Below are positions 28,834 through 39,112 of a DNA stretch of 64,000 nucleotides, in pieces. Source of the DNA: Myxococcota bacterium. Lineage in GTDB: Bacteria > Myxococcota_A > UBA9160 > SMWR01. A program made the translations under genes and the position numbers. Position 1 is the first letter of the stretch, and every line of letters starts with the position of its first letter. Under the pieces are notes generated by a model. That model had not been told where the DNA came from. It saw only the letters and a program-made list of their open reading frames with translations, and did no database searches. The DNA lies in contig JBCCEW010000001.1 of NCBI GenBank assembly GCA_039030075.1, positions 124,001-188,000 of the forward strand, read 5' to 3'.

Positions 28834-31311
28834 ATGGCCCTCGCACCGGGCACGTCCCCGTCGCCCACCGACCTGCGCGGCCGCATCGAGGCGGCCTTCG
28901 AAGACTGGGCCCTCTTCGTATGCCGCCGCCGCTGGTGGTTCCTCGCCTTCGGGTTGGGATGTGCGCTGGGCTTCGCCACGTTGCTGGCGGACCTGCGCGT
29001 CAACAACTCCACCGACAACTACCTCCGGCCCGACGATCCGATTCGCCTGCAGTACGACGCTTTCCGCGAGCAGTTCGGCAGCGAGACCCGGATCACGTTC
29101 GCGATCGAGAGCGATGCGATCTGGACCCACGCCTTCCTCGAGCGCTTGCGCGCGCTCCACGACGCGGCGGAGGAGCGCATCGAATCGGCGGATGAAGTCC
29201 AGAGCCTGATCAACGCTCGGGACACACGCGGCGAGGGCGACACGCTCGTCGTGGGCGACCTGCTCGAGGATTGGCCGACATCGGAGGCGGACCTCGACGA
29301 ACTGCGGTCGCGGGTGATGGCGAACCCGCTCTACCAGAACACCCTGATTTCGGCGGATGGCCGTCTCACCACCCTCTCGGTCCGCCTCGCCGCCTACGTC
29401 GACCCCGGAGAGGTCGACGTGCTCGCGGGTTTCGATGATGCCCCTGACAGCCGCGCCTCGGAGACCGAGCGCAGCGCCGGGGGATCCTTCTACCTGCCGC
29501 CGGAAGAGACGGCGGCGGCGATGGAGGTGGCCGATGTGCTGGCCGCCGAGTTCGATGCTCCGGATTTCCGGATCTCCCTCGCCGGCGCACCGGTCCTGAC
29601 CGAGACCCTGAACCGTCGCATGATCGACGACATGCGCTTCTTCATCCTCGCGTCGATCTCCGCCATCGCGCTGTTCCTGGCGCTGCTCTTCCGGCGGCCC
29701 GCGGCGGTGGCCCTGCCGCTGGTGATCGTCGGGGCGACCCTCGTCACGACCTTCGGGCTGATCTCCTGGAGCGGGACCGACGTCGGGCAGGGCACCCAGA
29801 TCCTGCCTTCGTTTCTGCTCGGGGTCGGCATCTGCGACACGGTCCACATCCTGAGCATCTACTACCTCGCTCGCGCCCGAGGCGACGAGAAACGCGAAGC
29901 GATCGGGTTCTCGTTCCGACACTCGGCCCTCGCCATCCTGTTGACGAGTCTCACGACCGCGGGGGGGCTGGCGTCGTTCATCACCGCGGACCTGGCTCCG
30001 GCGCAGCACGTCGGCGTGTTCGCGCCGATTGGCGTCATGCTCGCCTTCGTGTACACGGCGGTGCTGCTCCCGGCGATGATGGCGATCTTGCCGATGGGGT
30101 CGCCGCGCCCCACGACGAATCCGAACGCGCCGAGTCTCTGGCTCGATCGGGCGCTGCGCGCCACCGGACGCTGGTCGGCCCAGCACCGGGCGTCGGTCCT
30201 GGTGGGAACCGGGGCGCTCCTCGCGTTCTCCCTGGTCGGCGCGCAGTACCTCTTCATGAGCCACGACCCGATGGACTGGCTGCCTGCGTCGGACGCCACC
30301 CGAAAAGGCACGCTGCTGATGAACGACCGTCTCGGTGGGGTGAACACTCTCGAGGTGGTCGTGTCGTACCCGGAGAGCGAGGCGATCAAGCGACCCGACG
30401 TCCTCGAACGCCTCGAGGGATTCGAGGCCTATGCCGACGAGTACCGAAGTGGCCCGCTCAAGATCGCCCAGTCCATCTCGATCCTCGACGTGCTGCGCGA
30501 GACCCATCAGGCGCTCCACGCGAACGATCCCGCCTACTACGAGGTACCCCGCGAAGCCGGGCTGATCGCCCAGGAGCTGCTGCTCTTCGAGGGGTCGGGC
30601 ACCGACGATCTCGAAGAGATGGTCGATACGCGCTTCAGCCAGGCGCGGATGTCGCTGCGGGTGCCGTGGGAGGACACGCTGCACTACCCCGCCGTGATTC
30701 GAGACCTTCGAGCGGAGGTCGAGTCGCGCGTCGGCCCAGAGGCCGAGGTGACGATGACCGGGCTGCTCTCGATGCTCTCGCGGACCTTCGATTCGCTGAT
30801 GTCGTCGATGCAGCGCTCCTACCTCCTCGCCATCTCGATCATCGCGCCGATGATGATGTTGCTGCTCGGGAGCCTCCGACTCGGCTTGCTGAGCATCGTG
30901 CCCAACCTGGCCCCGATCATGGTGTTGCTCGGCTACATGGGCTGGAGCGAGACCCCCATCGACGGGATGAGCCTGATGGCAGGTGCGATCATCCTCGGGC
31001 TCGCGATCGACGACACCATCCACTACATGCACAACTTCCGACGGTCCTACGTCGCGTCGGGTGATTCTCTGCAAGCAATCGACGAAACCCTCGAAGGCAC
31101 GGGTCGGGCCTTGCTGGTCACCTCACTCGTACTGGCGGCGGGCTTCGCGGTCTTCGCGGGTGCCTATATGTCGAACGTGCGACTCTTCGGCGGGCTCGTG
31201 GCCGCGACGATCCTGGGCGCCTTCGTCTCGAACGTCGTGGTGGGGTCGGCGCTGATGTCCTACGCCAGCGAATGGGGGATCGGCGCCGGTCGGGCGAAGG
31301 AGCCGGCTTGA
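28834..31311 (+). CDS. MMPL/RND-superfamily exporter
   Basis: 825 residues with about 12 membrane segments in two six-helix halves, each preceded by a periplasmic domain: helix at about 35-55, cluster at 265-425, second start near 455, cluster at 655-815. Conserved charged helix residues include GVGICDTVHI and GLAIDDTIHYMHN, the proton-relay positions of the MMPL/HpnN group. It probably moves lipids or hydrophobic metabolites across the inner membrane by proton antiport. It lies between the acyl-CoA genes and a lipoprotein gene 29 bases downstream. No periplasmic adaptor gene is adjacent. Confidence 0.86.
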   Translation: MALAPGTSPSPTDLRGRIEAAFEDWALFVCRRRWWFLAFGLGCALGFATLLADLRVNNSTDNYLRPDDPIRLQYDAFREQFGSETRITFAIESDAIWTHAFLERLRALHDAAEERIESADEVQSLINARDTRGEGDTLVVGDLLEDWPTSEADLDELRSRVMANPLYQNTLISADGRLTTLSVRLAAYVDPGEVDVLAGFDDAPDSRASETERSAGGSFYLPPEETAAAMEVADVLAAEFDAPDFRISLAGAPVLTETLNRRMIDDMRFFILASISAIALFLALLFRRPAAVALPLVIVGATLVTTFGLISWSGTDVGQGTQILPSFLLGVGICDTVHILSIYYLARARGDEKREAIGFSFRHSALAILLTSLTTAGGLASFITADLAPAQHVGVFAPIGVMLAFVYTAVLLPAMMAILPMGSPRPTTNPNAPSLWLDRALRATGRWSAQHRASVLVGTGALLAFSLVGAQYLFMSHDPMDWLPASDATRKGTLLMNDRLGGVNTLEVVVSYPESEAIKRPDVLERLEGFEAYADEYRSGPLKIAQSISILDVLRETHQALHANDPAYYEVPREAGLIAQELLLFEGSGTDDLEEMVDTRFSQARMSLRVPWEDTLHYPAVIRDLRAEVESRVGPEAEVTMTGLLSMLSRTFDSLMSSMQRSYLLAISIIAPMMMLLLGSLRLGLLSIVPNLAPIMVLLGYMGWSETPIDGMSLMAGAIILGLAIDDTIHYMHNFRRSYVASGDSLQAIDETLEGTGRALLVTSLVLAAGFAVFAGAYMSNVRLFGGLVAATILGAFVSNVVVGSALMSYASEWGIGAGRAKEPA

Positions 31312-31340
31312 TCTTCCGATCCGTGCGAAGGAGGTCCGTC

Positions 31341-31793
31341 GTGGTCCAGCGTCTCTCGATCGTGCTCTGCTTGGGCTGGCTCGCGTGCGGGCCCGAGCGT
31401 GGGCCTTTCGTGGTGGAAGCGAACACGCCCGCGGTCCAGGGCAACTACCTGTCCGAAGCGGTCGGGCTCGAACTCGACGCAGGCGAGGTAGCGCCGATCC
31501 TGGAGGTGCCCTGTGCATTGCCGTGCGCCGAGACCGTTGCGTTCGGGACCGAGGACGAAGAGCAGATCGACATCCTGCTCTACCTCTACCGGGGCAACGC
31601 TCCCAGCGTCGACGGCAACCACTCGCTCGGGCTCTTCGCGGTGAGTGGGTTCAGCGTGAAGGACGGCACCGACGGCGCGATCTCGATCACCTTCCGCGCC
31701 ACCGAGAGCGCGCTGCTGCTCGAAGCGAAGGGCAGCGACGGCGCCTTCCTGGCGATCGAAGAGCTGGACGAGGAAGCCGTCTTCGCCGAGTGA
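31341..31793 (+). CDS. Lipoprotein resembling an isolated Hsp70 substrate-binding domain
   Basis: 150 residues. The GTG at 31341 follows an excellent AAGGAGG six bases before it. Signal MVQRLSIVLCLGWLAC with lipidation at Cys16. The mature part follows the beta-sandwich of DnaK in order: VGLELDAGEVAPILEV, then DILLYLYRGNAPSVDGN, HSLGLFAVSGF, AISITFRATESALLLEA. The ATPase domain is absent. A periplasmic lipoprotein with an Hsp70-type peptide-binding fold is not something I know. It lies 29 bases after the MMPL exporter, with which it may act. Homology is inferred by eye. Confidence 0.7.
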   Translation: MVQRLSIVLCLGWLACGPERGPFVVEANTPAVQGNYLSEAVGLELDAGEVAPILEVPCALPCAETVAFGTEDEEQIDILLYLYRGNAPSVDGNHSLGLFAVSGFSVKDGTDGAISITFRATESALLLEAKGSDGAFLAIEELDEEAVFAE

Positions 31794-31845: not shown

Positions 31846-33954
31846 ATGACCGAATTCGAAGCCGCCGCCCGGCGGGTCCGGGAGGGCGCCGATCCGCGCC
31901 AAGAGGCCCGCGCACTCGTCGACCAGATGTCCCTCGACGAACAGCTCGCGTGTCTCGACGGAGATATCGCCTTCTGGCCCGGGATCATCGATCTCTCGAG
32001 CGGCGGGTACCACACCCATCCGTGGCCGGCGGTGAAGAACACGCGGCTCGGCGTACCGGGCCTCGACTTCTCCGATGGTCCGCGTGGCTGCGTGATCGGC
32101 GCGTGCACCGCGTTCCCGGTGTCGATGGCGCGGGGCGCGAGCTTCGATCCCGATCTCGAGCGCCGCGTGGGACGGGCGATCGGCATCGAGCTGCGCGCCC
32201 AGGGCGCGACCTTCACGGGCGCCGTGTGTCTGAATCTCTTGCGTCACCCCGCGTGGGGACGTGCGCAGGAGACCTACGGCGAGGATCCGCACCACGTCGG
32301 CGAGATGGCGCTCGCCCTGACGGAAGGCCTGCAAGAACACGTGATGGCGTGCATGAAGCACTTCGCCTTGAACTCGATGGAGAACGCACGCTTCCAGGTC
32401 GATATCGAAGTCGACGAGCGCTCGCTGCACGAGACCTACCTGCCGCACTTCAAACGGGTCGCCGACGGTGGTGTCGCGAGCGTGATGAGCAGCTACAACG
32501 CCATGAACGGCGAATGGTGCGGTGAGAATCGAGTGCTCCTGCGCGACATCCTGCGCGACGAGTGGGGCTGGGACGGTTTCGTGATCACCGACTTCGCGTT
32601 CGGCCTGCGCGATGCGGTGAAGTCGGTCGGTGCGGGCTGCAATGTCGAGATGCCCTTCCGCCAGCATCGGGCCGTCCACCTCCCGGGCGCGCTCGACTCG
32701 GGCGAGCTGGCCTCGAGCGAGGTGGAGGACCGGGCCGTCGAGACGCTGGCGACCTTCCTGCGCTTCGCCCACGTCTTCGCCGCGCCACCGCCGCCGCATC
32801 GGGTGGCCTGCGCCGAACACCGGGCGTTGGCCCGCGAAGCCGCGGCCGCTTCGATGGTGCTGCTGCGCAACCGCGGGGCGCTCTTGCCGGTCGCGCCGCA
32901 TGCCCTGTCTCGTGTCGCCGTCCTCGGCCGGTTGGCAGCGGTCCCCAACCTGGGCGACGGCGGCAGCAGCAACGGCTTTCCGCCCGAGGTGATCACGCCG
33001 CTCGCGGGCCTGGAGGCCGCGCTGCCCGATGCCGAGGTCGTCCATGCGAACGCGGACACCACGATCACGGCGGACGCGGATCTGGTGGTGGTCGTCGTCG
33101 GCTACACGAAGGAGGACGAGGGAGAGTTCGTCGACCCAGAGGCGATGCAGAAGCTCTCGTTCCTCTACCCGCCCTCGGACCACCCCGAGACGGGGTTCCC
33201 GCCCGACTTCGTCGCGCCGCCTCCGAAGCCGACGCCCGACGGCGGCATGCCCGGCTTCGCCGCCGGGGGCGATCGCAGCTCACTGCGGCTGCGTCCCGAG
33301 GACGAGGCCCTGATCGCGGCCGCCTGTGCGGCCCACGACCGCGTGGTCGTCGCGGTGATGGCCGGCAGCGCGGTGGTGATGCCCTGGCTCGAGACGCCGG
33401 CGGCGACGCTCCTGCTCTGGTACCCGGGGATGGAAGGCGGCCATGCCCTGGCCGACGTGCTGCTGGGTGCGTCCGAGCCCGGCGGGCGACTTCCCTTCGC
33501 GGTCCCGGTGCGCGACGAAGACCTGGTGCCCTTCGACAAGGACGCGACCGCGTTCCGCTACGACCTCCTCCACGGTCAATGGTGGCTCGACCACCAGGGC
33601 ACCGCGCCGCACCTGCCCTTCGGCTATGGCCTCGGCTACACCGAATTCGCGATCGAGACCTGCAGACAACAGGACGAGTCCGTGCAGGTGACCGTGACGA
33701 ACCGGGGCGCACGCGCCGGCTCGACGGTGGTGCAGCTCTACGGAAGCGTGCCCAGTTCCGAGCGCATGCGGCCGCCGAAGCGACTGCTCGCCTTCCGGCG
33801 GGTGGCGCTCGATGCGGGCGCGAGCGCGACCGTGGCGTTGCCCTTGGACGTGGCCCCTCTGGACATCCGCGAGGGCGGACGCTGGCTGCGCGAAGACGCC
33901 GCCGTCGAGCTGCACATCGGCTTCGACGCGATCGCGACCCAGCCCCTGAAGTAG
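31846..33954 (+). CDS. Glycoside hydrolase family 3 beta-glycosidase
   Basis: 702 residues. GH3 (alpha/beta)8 barrel then alpha/beta sandwich and fibronectin-III-like C-terminal domain. Motifs: LDFSDGPRG, KHFALNSMENAR (Lys-His), VMSSYNAMNG, and the nucleophile Asp249 in VITDFAF. The sandwich domain carries LLWYPGMEGGHALADVL, and the end shows FGYGLGYTEF. It probably hydrolyses beta-linked glucosides or xylosides; substrate is not readable. No signal peptide, so cytoplasmic action on imported oligosaccharides is likely. Converges on the RND pump gene with 9 bases between. Confidence 0.9.
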   Translation: MTEFEAAARRVREGADPRQEARALVDQMSLDEQLACLDGDIAFWPGIIDLSSGGYHTHPWPAVKNTRLGVPGLDFSDGPRGCVIGACTAFPVSMARGASFDPDLERRVGRAIGIELRAQGATFTGAVCLNLLRHPAWGRAQETYGEDPHHVGEMALALTEGLQEHVMACMKHFALNSMENARFQVDIEVDERSLHETYLPHFKRVADGGVASVMSSYNAMNGEWCGENRVLLRDILRDEWGWDGFVITDFAFGLRDAVKSVGAGCNVEMPFRQHRAVHLPGALDSGELASSEVEDRAVETLATFLRFAHVFAAPPPPHRVACAEHRALAREAAAASMVLLRNRGALLPVAPHALSRVAVLGRLAAVPNLGDGGSSNGFPPEVITPLAGLEAALPDAEVVHANADTTITADADLVVVVVGYTKEDEGEFVDPEAMQKLSFLYPPSDHPETGFPPDFVAPPPKPTPDGGMPGFAAGGDRSSLRLRPEDEALIAAACAAHDRVVVAVMAGSAVVMPWLETPAATLLLWYPGMEGGHALADVLLGASEPGGRLPFAVPVRDEDLVPFDKDATAFRYDLLHGQWWLDHQGTAPHLPFGYGLGYTEFAIETCRQQDESVQVTVTNRGARAGSTVVQLYGSVPSSERMRPPKRLLAFRRVALDAGASATVALPLDVAPLDIREGGRWLREDAAVELHIGFDAIATQPLK

Positions 33955-33963
33955 CGGGCGGTT

Positions 33964-36900
33964 TCAGTCGGCGATCGCCCGCGCCGAGACAGGCAGGGGA
34001 CGCACGTCTTCGAGGGTTTCGGCCGGGCTCTCCTCTCGACTTCCGGTCAGGTCCTCGAGGATCAGGTAGCCCGCGGGCACCAGGAAGAGCGTGACGACGG
34101 CGGACATCAGCACGCCGTAGCCGAGCGAGATCGCCATCGGGATCAGCGGGATCGCCGGCGGTGCCGCTTCGAACATCAATGGCACCAGGCCGATGAAGGT
34201 CGTCATGCAGGTCAGCACGATCGGGCGGAAGCGCGCGATCCCGGCGCTGCGTACCGCGTCTTCGGTGTGGAGTCCTTCGGCGCGGCGGCGGTTTACCGAG
34301 TGGACGAGCACGAGGCTCGCGTTCACCACCACGCCCGAGAGCGCCATGATGCCGAGCACCGAGAAGAACACGAGATCCCAGCCCATGATCAGGTGGCCGA
34401 GGATCGCGCCCACGGCGCCGAAGGGGATCACGCTCATGATCACGAAGGGCTGGCTGTAGGACTGGAGCGGGATCGCGAGCAGCGCGTAGATCAGCAGCAG
34501 CGCGAGGACCGCCCCGCGCAGCAGCCCGGCCAGGGCGCTCGCGTTCTCTTCCTGTTCACCCGAGAGGCGGTAGGACACGCCGGGATAGCCCGCGAGCAAC
34601 GACGGCATCTCCTTGAGGACGCTGGCGAGGACACGTTCGGGCGTCGTGACGCCGCGATCGACGTCGGCGGTGACGGTGACCACGCGCTGGCCGTCGGTGC
34701 GCTGGATCGTGGCGAAGCCCCGGTCGAGTTGCGCATCGGCCACCGCCGCGAACGGCACCTCGACGCCGTCTCCCGTACGGATCCGCATCTCTTCGAGGGA
34801 GCCGAGGGACTGTCGCTCGTTCTCCGGGTAGCGGATCATCACCTTGATGTCGTCCTGGCCGCGCTGGATCCGCTGGGCTTCCTCGCCGTAGAACGACTGG
34901 CGCACCTGACGGGCGAGGTCCTGCAGGGTCAGGCCGAGGGGGCGCGCCTCGGGGAAGAGGGCGAGCTGCACCTCTTGTTTGCCGCCGCGGAACGAATCGG
35001 CGATGTCCACGACGCCCTTGTACGAAGCGAGTCGACCCCGGAGCTCGGCCGCGGCCTGGGTGCGCGTCGCGACGCTGCCGCCGCGCAGCTCGATCCCGAT
35101 CGCGTCTCCCGCGGAGAAAGCGTTGCTGGTGAACACGAGCTCCACCTGGTCGGGGAAGGCGCCGGCGCGGGTCCTCCAGCGGTTGGCGAACTCGACGGCG
35201 TCGAACGACCGGAGGGTCGTGGTGGTCAGCTGCAGGCCCACCTCGATGATGTGGGACCCCCCGCTGCGCACGGCGAAGCTGCCGGGGCCGTCGCGGTCCA
35301 GCTTCTCGCCGATCGAGGAGACCATGTGGACGATGGGGTTGGGATCGTCGGGATACTCGGACTCGAAGCCGGCCGCGACTTCGACCGCGCTGTCTTCGAG
35401 CCCCTTCGCGGCGGCCCGCGCGGTTTCGAGTGGCGTCCCCTGCGGGAGCGTCAGTGAGGCGAAGACGTCGTTCCCCTGGACGTCGGGGAAGAACTGGTAC
35501 CGCATGCGGCCACTGGAGAAGAGGGCGGCCGTGACGATCATCAGGCCCAACGCGAGCGCCGCGGTGACGTAGCGGTACTCGAGCGCACGGTGGAGCGCGC
35601 TGCCGTAGCGTTCCTTGGCGAACTGCTCGAGCCAGTTGCCCATGAAGCCCTGAAAGCGCATCCAACGCGCGACGAAGCGGTTGGGCTCACCGGCGCTCGA
35701 CTCGGTCCGGCGGTGCGCGAGGTGACACGGCAGGATCAGCTGGGATTCGATCAGCGAGAAGAAGAGACAGATCGTAGCCGTCACGCCGATCACGCTGAAG
35801 AACCGGCCCATGTTTCCCGGCGCGAGCACCAGGGGCAGGAACGCCGCGACGGTGGTCATCACCCCGAAGATCACGGGGACGTAGACCTCCTGGGTCCCGA
35901 GGATCGCGGCTTCGGTCTGGTTCTTCGCGGTGGCCTCCCGGGTGTAGACGCTCTCGCCGATCACGATGGCGTCGTCGACGAGGATCCCGATCACCAGGAT
36001 GAAGGCCATCACCGTCAGCGTGCTGATCGAGAGGTCGAGGCTCGGGAACATCATGATCGCGCCGAGGAACGAGATCGGGACGCCGGCAGCGACCCACATG
36101 GCGAGCCGGAAGCGCAGGAACAGCGCCAGGATCGCGACGACGAGGAAGAGTCCCGAACGCGCATTGCCCACCAGGGCGTCGAGTCGGACCTCCAGATCCG
36201 CGGAAGCGTCATTGAAGAGGGTGATCTCCACGCCCTCGGGCAGCCGCTCGCGGAAGCCCACGGTCCACTCTTTGACGGCTCCGGCGATGTCGAGGATGTC
36301 CTCGTCGCCGATGCGCTCGACCTTCACGATGGCGGCCGGCGAGCCCGCGAAGCGGGCCGAGAGGTCGACGTCTTCGAAGCCGTCGATCACGCGGGCGATC
36401 TCGCCGAGGCGAACGCTCGTCCCGTCGTTGCGCGTCAGCACCACGATCGACTCGAACTCTTCGCCCTGGTAGGCCTGCCCCTTCGTGCGCAGCAGGATCT
36501 CACCATCGGTCGTCTTGACCGAACCACCGGGCAGGTCGAGGGAGGAGCGGCGCACCGCCGCGGCGATCGTGTCGAGGGTGATGCCGTGGCGGCGCAGCGT
36601 CTCCTCGGAAACCTCGATCGAGAGCTCGTAGGGCCGGGTATGGGTCAGACTCGCCTGGGAGACCTCGGGCAGCCCGGCAATCTCGTCGCGGGCCTGCTGC
36701 CCGAGGAGCTTGAGCGTGCGCTCGCCGGTGTGGCCGTGGATGGCCGCGCGGATCACCGTGTTGCGGATCACCAGCTTCGAGACGATCGGCTTTTCGGCTT
36801 CGTCCGGGAAGGTGTCGATGGCATCGACCCGGTTCTCGACCTCCGCCAACGCGTCGTTTACGTCGGCGCCGGCGACCACCTCGATCGTGACGGCGCAGAC

Positions 36901-37164
36901 GCCCTCGACCGAGGTCGAACGCACGCGTTTGAGGTTCGGAACGCCTTCGATCTCTTCCTCGATCCGCACGCAGATCGAGCGCTCGATCTCCTCGGGGGTG
37001 GCGCCGGTGTACTCGACGGTCACCCGCACCACGTCGGTCTCGATGCTCGGAAACTCCTCCTGGTTGATCAGGGGGAGCGCCATCATGCCCCCGGCCAGGA
37101 GCACGAACATCAGGAGGTTGGCGGCGACCGGGTTGTGGACGAACCAGGCGATGACCCGGCTCAT
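33964..37164 (-). CDS. RND-family efflux pump, inner-membrane subunit
   Basis: 1066 residues, HAE1/AcrB type with 12 membrane helices in two repeats. The helix-4 proton-relay pair is in LVIGILVDDAIVIGE and the family motif GEANVxG region is recognisable (GTTPEEIE-like TGATPEEIERSI). It exports small molecules with the adaptor encoded just upstream, whose stop overlaps this start by four bases (ATGA). The third component (TolC-type channel) is not in the window. Controlled most likely by the FadR-type regulator that heads the operon. Confidence 0.92.
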   Translation of the reverse strand: MSRVIAWFVHNPVAANLLMFVLLAGGMMALPLINQEEFPSIETDVVRVTVEYTGATPEEIERSICVRIEEEIEGVPNLKRVRSTSVEGVCAVTIEVVAGADVNDALAEVENRVDAIDTFPDEAEKPIVSKLVIRNTVIRAAIHGHTGERTLKLLGQQARDEIAGLPEVSQASLTHTRPYELSIEVSEETLRRHGITLDTIAAAVRRSSLDLPGGSVKTTDGEILLRTKGQAYQGEEFESIVVLTRNDGTSVRLGEIARVIDGFEDVDLSARFAGSPAAIVKVERIGDEDILDIAGAVKEWTVGFRERLPEGVEITLFNDASADLEVRLDALVGNARSGLFLVVAILALFLRFRLAMWVAAGVPISFLGAIMMFPSLDLSISTLTVMAFILVIGILVDDAIVIGESVYTREATAKNQTEAAILGTQEVYVPVIFGVMTTVAAFLPLVLAPGNMGRFFSVIGVTATICLFFSLIESQLILPCHLAHRRTESSAGEPNRFVARWMRFQGFMGNWLEQFAKERYGSALHRALEYRYVTAALALGLMIVTAALFSSGRMRYQFFPDVQGNDVFASLTLPQGTPLETARAAAKGLEDSAVEVAAGFESEYPDDPNPIVHMVSSIGEKLDRDGPGSFAVRSGGSHIIEVGLQLTTTTLRSFDAVEFANRWRTRAGAFPDQVELVFTSNAFSAGDAIGIELRGGSVATRTQAAAELRGRLASYKGVVDIADSFRGGKQEVQLALFPEARPLGLTLQDLARQVRQSFYGEEAQRIQRGQDDIKVMIRYPENERQSLGSLEEMRIRTGDGVEVPFAAVADAQLDRGFATIQRTDGQRVVTVTADVDRGVTTPERVLASVLKEMPSLLAGYPGVSYRLSGEQEENASALAGLLRGAVLALLLIYALLAIPLQSYSQPFVIMSVIPFGAVGAILGHLIMGWDLVFFSVLGIMALSGVVVNASLVLVHSVNRRRAEGLHTEDAVRSAGIARFRPIVLTCMTTFIGLVPLMFEAAPPAIPLIPMAISLGYGVLMSAVVTLFLVPAGYLILEDLTGSREESPAETLEDVRPLPVSARAIAD

Positions 37165-38324
37165 GAGCGCGGGCCCTCGATCAGGGGCCGGACCTGCATG
37201 CCCTCGACGGCGGTCTGGAGGTTCGACACGACCACCCGCTCACCGCTCGCGATGCGGGCGCGCAACATCACCTCGTCGCCATCGATGCGCAGCACCTGGG
37301 CGGGACGCAGCTGGAGTCGGTCCTCGGTGTCGACCACAAGCATCCGGTCGCCGTCGCGGAGCGAGACCCGGGGCACGACCAGCACGTCGTCTTCGCGGCG
37401 ACCGTCGATCTCGGCCCGCACGAAGAGGCCCACCGCGAGGGGCGGGCGCCCGGTCTCGCTCGGGGCGTAGGGCGCTTCCACCCGTGCGATCACGTGGACC
37501 ATGCGGCTCTGCGGATCGATCTCGCCCTCGGTGCGCACCACGCGCCCCTGCCAGGAGTGCTCGGCCCCGGCGAAGCGGGCTCGCAGGGTCACGGCCGGTC
37601 CTTCCTCGTCGCTGCTTCGACCGAGGCCGGGCAGCTCGAGGTAGGCGAGCTGCTGGTCGGGAACCGGCAGTCGGATCTCGGCGTAGTCGGTGGCGTAGAG
37701 CGTCGCGATCGACTCTCCCCGACTCACGAACTGCCCGACGTCGACGCGTTCTTCGCGGACGCGCCCCGCGAAGGGCGCCAACAGCTCGGTGCGGGCGAGG
37801 TCGCGTTCGGCCTGCTCGAGCGCGACGCGCGCGTCCGAGAGGTTCGCGTAACCCACCCGAGCGGCGCGGCGTGCGTTCGAGAGCTGAGAGTCCGAACCGA
37901 TGTCGCGCTTCGAGAGTTCTTCCTGGCGCTTGCGCTCGGACGAGGCGTGGGACCACTCGCCACGGGTTCGGGAGAGGGCGGCGCGCGCGCGGGCCACCGC
38001 GGCCTCGTAGTCCTGGGCATCGATCCGCAGGAGCGGCTCGCCTACCTCGAAGAAACCGCCCGAGACGAGCTTCGGCGAAACCCAGACGACGGGCCCCGAG
38101 ACCTGGGGAATCAGCGCGCTCTCGGTGCGGGGCGCGACGGTCCCCTGGGTCCGCACGCGCAGGGCGACGGTCTTCGGGCTGGGCTCGACGACGCGCACGG
38201 ACAGGAGAGTCCGCTCGGGCACTTCGCTCTCGACCGGCGGCGCGGTCACGAGCAGGAGCACGGCGCCGACGATGGCGATGCCGACGACGATCGCGGGCAG
38301 GACGAGTCGCTTGCGGTCGGCCAT
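37161..38324 (-). CDS. RND efflux periplasmic adaptor (MFP family)
   Basis: 387 residues. One N-terminal membrane anchor (about 8-28, VVGIAIVGAVLLLVTAP) then the HlyD/AcrA order: lipoyl half (VSGPVVWVSPKLVSGGFFEVG), alpha-hairpin (AAVARARAALSRTRGEW), second lipoyl half (LLAPFAGRVREERVDVGQFV) and the beta-barrel domain. It bridges the RND pump to an outer-membrane channel. Its ATG overlaps the regulator stop (TGATG), and its stop overlaps the pump start, so the three genes are coupled. Confidence 0.9.
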   Translation of the reverse strand: MADRKRLVLPAIVVGIAIVGAVLLLVTAPPVESEVPERTLLSVRVVEPSPKTVALRVRTQGTVAPRTESALIPQVSGPVVWVSPKLVSGGFFEVGEPLLRIDAQDYEAAVARARAALSRTRGEWSHASSERKRQEELSKRDIGSDSQLSNARRAARVGYANLSDARVALEQAERDLARTELLAPFAGRVREERVDVGQFVSRGESIATLYATDYAEIRLPVPDQQLAYLELPGLGRSSDEEGPAVTLRARFAGAEHSWQGRVVRTEGEIDPQSRMVHVIARVEAPYAPSETGRPPLAVGLFVRAEIDGRREDDVLVVPRVSLRDGDRMLVVDTEDRLQLRPAQVLRIDGDEVMLRARIASGERVVVSNLQTAVEGMQVRPLIEGPRS

Positions 38325-39112
38325 CAGCGCACTCCGTTCACGTGCGCGGCGTCAGACTCGTTCCGGAGTCGCGCTTCGAGGGTCTCTCGCGCGAAGCGTC
38401 GAAACTCGAGGGTCATCTGGTGCACCGCGTTCGCGGCCGCCGCACCGTCGCGGGCGTCGAGCGCCTCGCGCAGATGGGGGAGCCAGACCGCTCCGATTGC
38501 CGGCGAGCGATCTCGCGCGAGGAAGGTGTTGTGCTCATGGAGTCGGTCGAAGATCTGGCGGCTCTTCAGTCCGTGGCGCACCAGCTGGAGCACGAGGTTG
38601 CCGCTGGCCTCGACGAAGGCGTCGCCGAGCTGGTGCATGGTGTCGTGGCGCTCGTCGAGATCGAGCGCGGTGTCTTCGAGTCGGAGCAACAGGGTCTTCA
38701 CCCGATCGCGCTGGGTCTCGTCGGCGCGCTCGGCGCCCAGTCGGGCGGCCAGTGCGAAGAGTCCGCTGAGGGCTTCCAGCAGCTGATCCACGAGGCGCGG
38801 CTCGGGCGGGTCGTCCAGCTCGAGCAGATGGGCGACCACGTCGAGGCTGGCACTCTCGAGGGGTTGGACCCGGGCCCCTCCCCCCGGACGGATCTCGGCG
38901 AGGCCGAGCTGTTCGAGTTGCTTCAGCGCTTCCCGGACGGTGCCCCGGTGGACCGAGAAACGGTCGGCCAGGTCGCGCTCGGAAGGCAGCCGGTCCCCGG
39001 CCCGATAGCGGCCGCGCAGGATCTCGTCGCGGAGTTCGGCCGAGACGAGCCCGGACCGCGAACGCAGTTTGTCCGAGGTGGTGGCGTCGAGGGGATCAGC
39101 GTGAGTCGACAC
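38324..39112 (-). CDS. FadR/GntR-family transcriptional regulator
   Basis: 262 residues from GTG. N-terminal winged helix with PSERDLADRFSVHRGTVREAL and the wing GLAEIRPGGGARV, followed by an all-helical ligand domain (FCD/FadR_C type). FadR-group regulators often bind acyl-CoA or organic acids. A palindrome of the FadR operator type lies 43 to 67 bases upstream (39155-39179), so autoregulation and control of the downstream adaptor and pump are expected. RND operons are more often under TetR regulators, so this pairing is unusual. Confidence 0.86.
   Translation of the reverse strand: MSTHADPLDATTSDKLRSRSGLVSAELRDEILRGRYRAGDRLPSERDLADRFSVHRGTVREALKQLEQLGLAEIRPGGGARVQPLESASLDVVAHLLELDDPPEPRLVDQLLEALSGLFALAARLGAERADETQRDRVKTLLLRLEDTALDLDERHDTMHQLGDAFVEASGNLVLQLVRHGLKSRQIFDRLHEHNTFLARDRSPAIGAVWLPHLREALDARDGAAAANAVHQMTLEFRRFARETLEARLRNESDAAHVNGVR

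Follow-up and report, generated by a model that had tools for sequence, protein, structure and literature searches.

A lipoprotein resembling an exported, stand-alone Hsp70 substrate-binding domain without its ATPase domain

Introduction

Hsp70 chaperones are regarded as inseparable from ATP. The ATP-independent chaperones of the bacterial periplasm, such as Skp, SurA and Spy, have folds unrelated to the β-sandwich subdomain of the Hsp70 substrate-binding domain (SBDβ), and the protein family described here is like them in its proposed role only, i.e. ATP-free polypeptide binding in the envelope. Its closest described counterpart is the SBDβ of DnaK and other Hsp70s (C-terminal part of PF00012; structures 4b9q, 7ko2 and 1dkx), with which it shares fold, strand order, pocket and homology over DnaK residues ~393–505. 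However, the family differs from DnaK and other Hsp70s in having neither an ATPase domain nor a lid, in its predicted export, in a Cys pair at DnaK positions 416 and 420, in the replacement of N415 and Q442, and in an N-terminal strand of its own.

Two other relatives of DnaK are relevant for comparison. The substrate-binding domain (SBD) of HscA (1u00) has the same SBDβ fold as our protein (match Z 10.3), but HscA is cytosolic and keeps both ATPase domain and lid; its arch, described as specialised in the text available from PMC8215388, is hydrophobic, whereas that of our protein is acidic. The PilZ-DnaK chaperones CsdK1 and CsdK2 of Myxococcus xanthus are likewise unusual Hsp70 derivatives, although in these a PilZ domain is joined to a retained ATPase domain, linker and SBD (PMC10313047, sections available). 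A full-text literature search, judged by titles and abstracts and with subscription journals mostly outside its scope, found no description of a bacterial Hsp70 SBD that is exported or stands alone.

The gene and its export signal

The gene was found in a 64,000-nucleotide stretch of DNA from a Myxococcota bacterium, hereafter the window. It occupies positions 31341–31793 (+ strand) and encodes a lipoprotein of 150 residues with an Hsp70 SBDβ, as assigned from the reading frame, PDB matches and profile score. Translation is read from a GTG at 31341 to a stop codon ending at 31793, and a Shine-Dalgarno sequence, GGAGG, can be read at 31330–31334 (+), 6 nt ahead of the start. A longer alternative frame begins with an ATG at 31272 and runs into the upstream gene; the GTG was preferred as the start that has both a Shine-Dalgarno sequence and a signal peptide. 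The upstream gene (28834–31311) encodes an MMPL-family transporter (Pfam MMPL, 9.3e-28) and ends 29 nt before the lipoprotein gene, and the downstream gene (31846–33954), a family 3 glycoside hydrolase (GH3), starts 52 nt past it. The shared strand and the 29-nt gap make one transcript for the MMPL and lipoprotein genes likely. The following stretch (33964–39112) appears ordinary by eye: an RND efflux pump-like gene (33964–37164, − strand) stands in line with genes for a membrane-fusion-like protein and a GntR-like regulator.

The N-terminus of the protein reads MVQRLSIVLCLGWLAC. Residues 1–16 (31341–31388, +), which end in LCLGWLAC, comprise a signal peptide with a lipobox-like end and a putatively lipid-bearing Cys16. 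The segment SIVLCLGWLAC matches a PROSITE-style lipoprotein pattern, in line with the export and lipid anchor proposed in the initial annotation, though the strict lipobox [LVI][ASTVIGL][GAS]C is not matched, position −3 being W.

Homology to Hsp70

A phmmer search against the PDB yielded 53 matches at E<=10, all of them Hsp70, DnaK, BiP or HscA (best 2op6, E 1.3e-4). Their alignments begin at residue 40–42 and end at 126 at most, and those printed are gap-free across the SBD. The protein scores low in curated profiles (Pfam HSP70 on the protein alone 12.9 bits, below the cut-off of 20.6; NCBIfam DnaK E 0.0016), so these alone would miss it. When the SBDs of 91 Hsp70s, taken from loci gathered in this analysis, were made into a local profile, the protein scored 40.4 bits, compared to 6.7 bits for the highest-scoring of 2000 shuffled versions of its mature part (1209 of which scored at all) and 1.5 bits for the next-best of 389 window frames, which rules out a chance resemblance. 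The gap-free alignments and a score far above the shuffled background agree with the initial annotation, in which the mature part was said to follow the strand order of the DnaK β-sandwich; its pairing of LYRGN.../LGLFAVSGF with QGER.../LGQFNLDGI of DnaK was also borne out.

The absence of an ATPase domain, claimed at the same time, holds as well: the protein has only 150 residues, and the Pfam and NCBIfam matches of this protein and its relatives are confined to the SBD part, with ATPase domain and linker missing. In the 64-kb window there is no HSP70 match elsewhere and no frame for an ATPase domain. The α-helical lid (SBDα) is missing too, since the protein ends at DnaK ~505. Four long Hsp70s are encoded in the genome, which also has three partial matches to the ATPase domain. 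One Hsp70 of 779 residues (locus L002, 616–2955, − strand, on G000:C1) is encoded ~130 kb from the lipoprotein gene; its profile match ends at 513 of 599, and it has a long acidic low-complexity tail and adjoins a small J-domain-like frame.

Predicted structure

Structure prediction returned the Hsp70 β-sandwich. The AlphaFold model of the window protein, computed from a four-sequence alignment (pLDDT 81.8, pTM 0.74), places the SBDβ at residues 35–145 (31443–31775, +) by alignment to DnaK 393–505 (Z 15.2, rmsd 2.1, 109 residues). The best 50 Foldseek rows were all Hsp70s, with 4b9q at 5.7e-8. A single C-terminal helix of six residues is predicted. The model of the member from Stenotrophomonas sp. 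VV52 superposes on DnaK with Z 16.3 (rmsd 1.5 over 112).

The 13 top-scoring structural matches of either model are all open, ATP-bound or AMPylated Hsp70s. Open Hsp70s gave Z 13.1–15.2 with the window model and 13.5–16.3 with the Stenotrophomonas model, compared to 11.7 and 12.9 for the best other rows. The SBDβ is preceded by an N-terminal segment (residues 17–34; 31389–31442, +) with the motif [VI]VExx[ST]PA, recognised from family alignments and from DSSP of the model, which assigns a strand to residues 23–27 of the window protein. In several open structures this family segment (from residue 26–33) superposes on the ATPase domain near DnaK 148/151 or BiP 178/181, with residues 26/28 onward at DnaK 151 or BiP 178/181. 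According to the text available from PMC4595643, residues 145, 146, 148, 151, 155 and 167 of the ATPase domain are among those touching the SBD. The predicted position of the segment, on the area of the ATPase domain that contacts the SBD, suggests a built-in substitute for that domain, although the alignments are shallow and the placement could be a training bias.

Relatives, distribution and descent

Twelve relatives without an ATPase domain were identified, including the window protein; beyond it, six belong to the same phylum and five to the GTDB family of Stenotrophomonas sp. VV52. Eleven of the twelve are single-domain proteins. The twelfth (G356; L091 1372–2688, on G356:C104) is a 438-residue lipoprotein with two tandem SBDs and no ATPase domain, in which the Hsp70 profile match of the C-terminal part reaches position 598 of 599. 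A lipoprotein-like N-terminus was recognised by eye in ten of the twelve, and nine pass the formal lipoprotein pattern (window protein included in both counts), compared to 70 of 1254 ATG frames of >=120 aa; among the eleven other than the window member, eight pass one of two lipoprotein patterns. The relative in G338 (L075 1321–1692, − strand, on G338:C251) has a strong Shine-Dalgarno sequence of its own and no signal peptide, and is apparently a cytosolic stand-alone SBD.

Single-domain relatives in the order of the window genome were found in G024, G043, G004 and G065, and five of 90 genomes of the class, window included, carry the gene (N-terminal profile, E<=1e-8). Applied to 377 genomes of the phylum, this profile adds at least G338 (E 1.2e-17) and G356 (1.1e-9), with at most 15 candidates scored per genome. 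This phylum count covers the early-start matches G338, G356, G181 and G287 and leaves out G247, G322 and G323, which are also early-start. The matches in G181 and G287 (L093, L094) are ordinary Hsp70s in which the region of the first SBD strand is a few residues longer, probably the reason for their early match to the family profile. A scan of genome_contigs gave three loci, in G024 (Deltaproteobacteria MAG Meg19_02_Bin_151), G043 (Myxococcota MAG IP29b_bin.68) and Stenotrophomonas sp. VV52 (G377). The gene is present in five of 297 genomes of the GTDB family of VV52; two of 328 genomes of its order pass E<=1e-25, and in its class (369 genomes) N-terminal coverage was seen in G377 alone among the matches listed.

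Six relatives match Pfam HSP70 at E 2e-18 to 1e-22, from profile position 364 at the earliest and with no ATPase-domain match. The protein of carrier G004 (G009's locus) falls just short of the cut-off, like the window protein (20.2 bits vs 20.6). Strain VV52 also has a 672-residue Hsp70-like frame, to which its stand-alone protein is 42% identical across 88 residues. Four further candidates without an ATPase motif (G013, L048, L054 and L061) were taken as cut dnaK pieces by their look, because of their NTTIP loop and lack of a signal peptide, and were left out of the family counts.

In a tree of ~104 columns the eleven single-domain members group together as one clade, apart from 91 Hsp70s drawn from the best matches to the stand-alone family (support 0.957; 0.953 with columns 415, 416, 420 and 442 masked), and both G356 domains are its nearest neighbours. 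Between carriers G392 and G618, dN is 0.126 and dS 0.426 (dN/dS ~0.3). As judged from these alignments, the single clade and the excess of dS over dN show one evolutionary origin and purifying selection, and thus an old, selected gene. It is also a rare and accessory one. Its sparse distribution in two distant groups suggests that it probably moved horizontally.

Carriage of the stand-alone gene by phages or plasmids was rejected. By tblastn, no plasmid record (148) and no phage record (33) reached 80% query coverage, and the matches listed (best 40 of 148 and best 20 of 33, respectively) cover the SBD part, as for DnaK or HscA. Among 80 of the 492 related stretches in viral_contigs, none is stand-alone. 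A crude pattern finds the ATPase motif in 75; of the remaining five, L150 has the start of a full Hsp70, L148, L152 and L171 are truncated at contig ends, and the start of L156 lies within the ATPase domain.

Conserved pocket and lost docking residues

Residues were counted in the eleven single-domain members and in the 91 ATPase-bearing Hsp70s, leaving aside position 481, where the alignment is unsafe. DnaK positions follow what we take to be the E. coli numbering, which agrees with the placement of model residues 35–145 on 393–505. The pocket is retained in the single-domain members: T428, I436 and V/I/L438 in 11/11 and F426 in 10/11. The docking positions are not. N415, found in 88/91 Hsp70s, is absent from all eleven members (G in ten, P in one), and Q442, invariant in the 91 Hsp70s, is R in ten members and L in one; in the window protein it corresponds to R84 (31590–31592, +). 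In DnaK, the SBD residues K414, N415, Q442 and D481 contact the ATPase domain (PMC6017645, text available in part), and K414 and N415 are also listed as such contacts in the portion available of PMC8215388.

The same loop carries the Cys pair, which in the window protein is C58-A-L-P-C62 (31512–31526, +), at DnaK 416 and 420. By the alignment counts, C416 is present in 9/11 single-domain members and 1/91 Hsp70s, C420 in 11/11 and 25/91, and both together in 9/11 and 0/91. In each of the eleven relatives that carry an export signal, the docking loop contains two Cys (ten at 416/420, G065 at 418/420), with the pair in G356 in the first SBD only; the cytosolic-looking G338 protein has a single Cys there. 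P419 is invariant in the family. Since this residue is touched by the J-domain in DnaK (PMC8215388, available portion), its invariance here probably reflects a structural role.

The window member is a divergent one of its family, above all in its cleft. It retains the pocket residues F68, T70, I78 and L80, and has acidic residues at both arch positions by alignment: D46 (31476–31478, +) at DnaK M404, and E71 (31551–31553, +) at DnaK A429. At the gate, G109 stands at DnaK R467, and G468 is replaced by T. The mature protein is very acidic: its pI is 4.05, and acidic residues number 25 compared to 6 basic ones. In other members the arch and gate positions are mostly kept, the Xanthomonadaceae members having L404/A429. 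Given that arch residues set specificity in DnaK and HscA (as stated in the available part of PMC8215388), the acidic arch makes a changed peptide preference of the window member likely, and a loss of peptide binding possible.

Proposed function and alternatives

Taken together, the sequence comparisons and the predicted fold firmly support a stand-alone Hsp70 SBDβ without an ATPase domain that would be exported and lipid-anchored. The most likely reading, to which we give about an even chance, is that it faces the periplasm as an SBDβ freed from the ATPase domain and acts as a putative tethered, ATP-free peptide binder. The lipid would tether the protein to a membrane. Its cleft would bind, in a simple and fast equilibrium, short hydrophobic stretches in extended form from polypeptides that are unfolded or passing by, needing neither an ATP cycle nor a lid or J-protein; the acidic arch of the window member points to an altered peptide preference. 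Several observations count against peptide capture: the arch and gate of the window member are changed and its mature part is very acidic, lidless DnaK has a lowered substrate affinity (PMC6017645, text available in part), and the rarity of the gene and its lack of conserved neighbours are unlike a housekeeping chaperone.

The peptide-binder reading also has a structural side, based on the AlphaFold models from four sequences as regards both the open conformation and the docking of the N-terminal segment. The N-terminal strand may replace the ATPase-domain hairpin (DnaK ~145–155), keeping the cleft open, ATP-like and fast-exchanging, and the Cys pair is probably a disulfide that would staple and stiffen the loop with which an Hsp70 docks onto its ATPase domain. 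The protein could then, quite speculatively, be an envelope-anchored, fast-exchange, ATP-free peptide receptor, possibly redox-sensitive. With the same caution, its relatives may form an undescribed family in which the Hsp70 peptide-binding domain was cut free and exported.

Possible, but rather unlikely, is an adaptor or structural module in which the SBDβ fold is reused for one specific partner or surface and extended-peptide binding is lost. The changed arch, gate and neighbouring positions of the window member would fit it, as would the rarity of this accessory gene and an MMPL-GH3 neighbourhood seen in no other member with inspected flanks; however, pocket positions 426, 428, 436 and 438 are conserved in divergent members, and the Xanthomonadaceae members keep the L404/A429 arch.

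We consider it improbable that the protein is a decoy that protects its carrier by sequestering peptide toxins or antimicrobial peptides within the envelope. The DnaK SBD binds proline-rich antimicrobial peptides, and the fold matches include structures containing oncocin, pyrrhocoricin and A3-APO; an accessory gene of scattered distribution fits a defence function, and short unassigned genes neighbour it in L111 and L113, but the three in L113 match no Pfam family.

The initial annotation had linked the protein to the adjacent MMPL exporter, and a partner holding substrate or peptide near that exporter would be favoured by the likely shared transcript. This is very unlikely. The inspected neighbours of the other members are unrelated: DUF2238 in G004, a transporter-like gene (by eye) in G338, an M48 peptidase and an HGSNAT-like gene in VV52, START-like genes in G392 and G618, and short unassigned genes in G473 and G627. 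In VV52 the M48-family peptidase (L102 5830–9744), of 1304 residues with a long C-terminal part, lies directly upstream of the lipoprotein gene. MMPL homologues occur in 11 of the 17 genomes of the window's family; among 12 MMPL loci checked, the lipoprotein gene lies beside the window's MMPL only and is absent from the other 11, and in carrier G004 no MMPL match reaches E<=1e-60. The tree also groups members having unrelated neighbours. The variable neighbours and the MMPL loci mostly lacking the lipoprotein mean that the MMPL link is accidental or local, and the proposed adjacency to MMPL exporters is thus confined to the window. Similarly, the lipoprotein gene was found at only one of six START loci checked, that of carrier G392.

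It is extremely improbable that the protein is half of a split Hsp70 working with a separate ATPase domain: the homology of the domain and the Hsp70s and ATPase-domain matches counted above would fit it, but the export signal, the lack of an ATPase domain in the window and the replacement of N415 and Q442 in all eleven single-domain members argue against it, and ATP is absent from the bacterial periplasm. A decaying dnaK fragment with an accidental signal peptide, which the short, sparse and divergent sequences might suggest, is just as improbable and is refuted for the family as a whole by one clade in two groups, shared derived residues, a dN/dS of ~0.3 for closely related carriers and intact signal peptides.

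Significance

Because the docking residues are lost and the pocket is kept, the family would serve as a natural test of the purpose of the ATPase-docking residues. The question is testable, since the carriers include Stenotrophomonas sp. VV52, which has a RefSeq genome. A natural, exported Hsp70 client-binding domain would be surprising for chaperone biology, its peptide-binding role being putative, and would show that the grip of Hsp70 can be useful without its engine.
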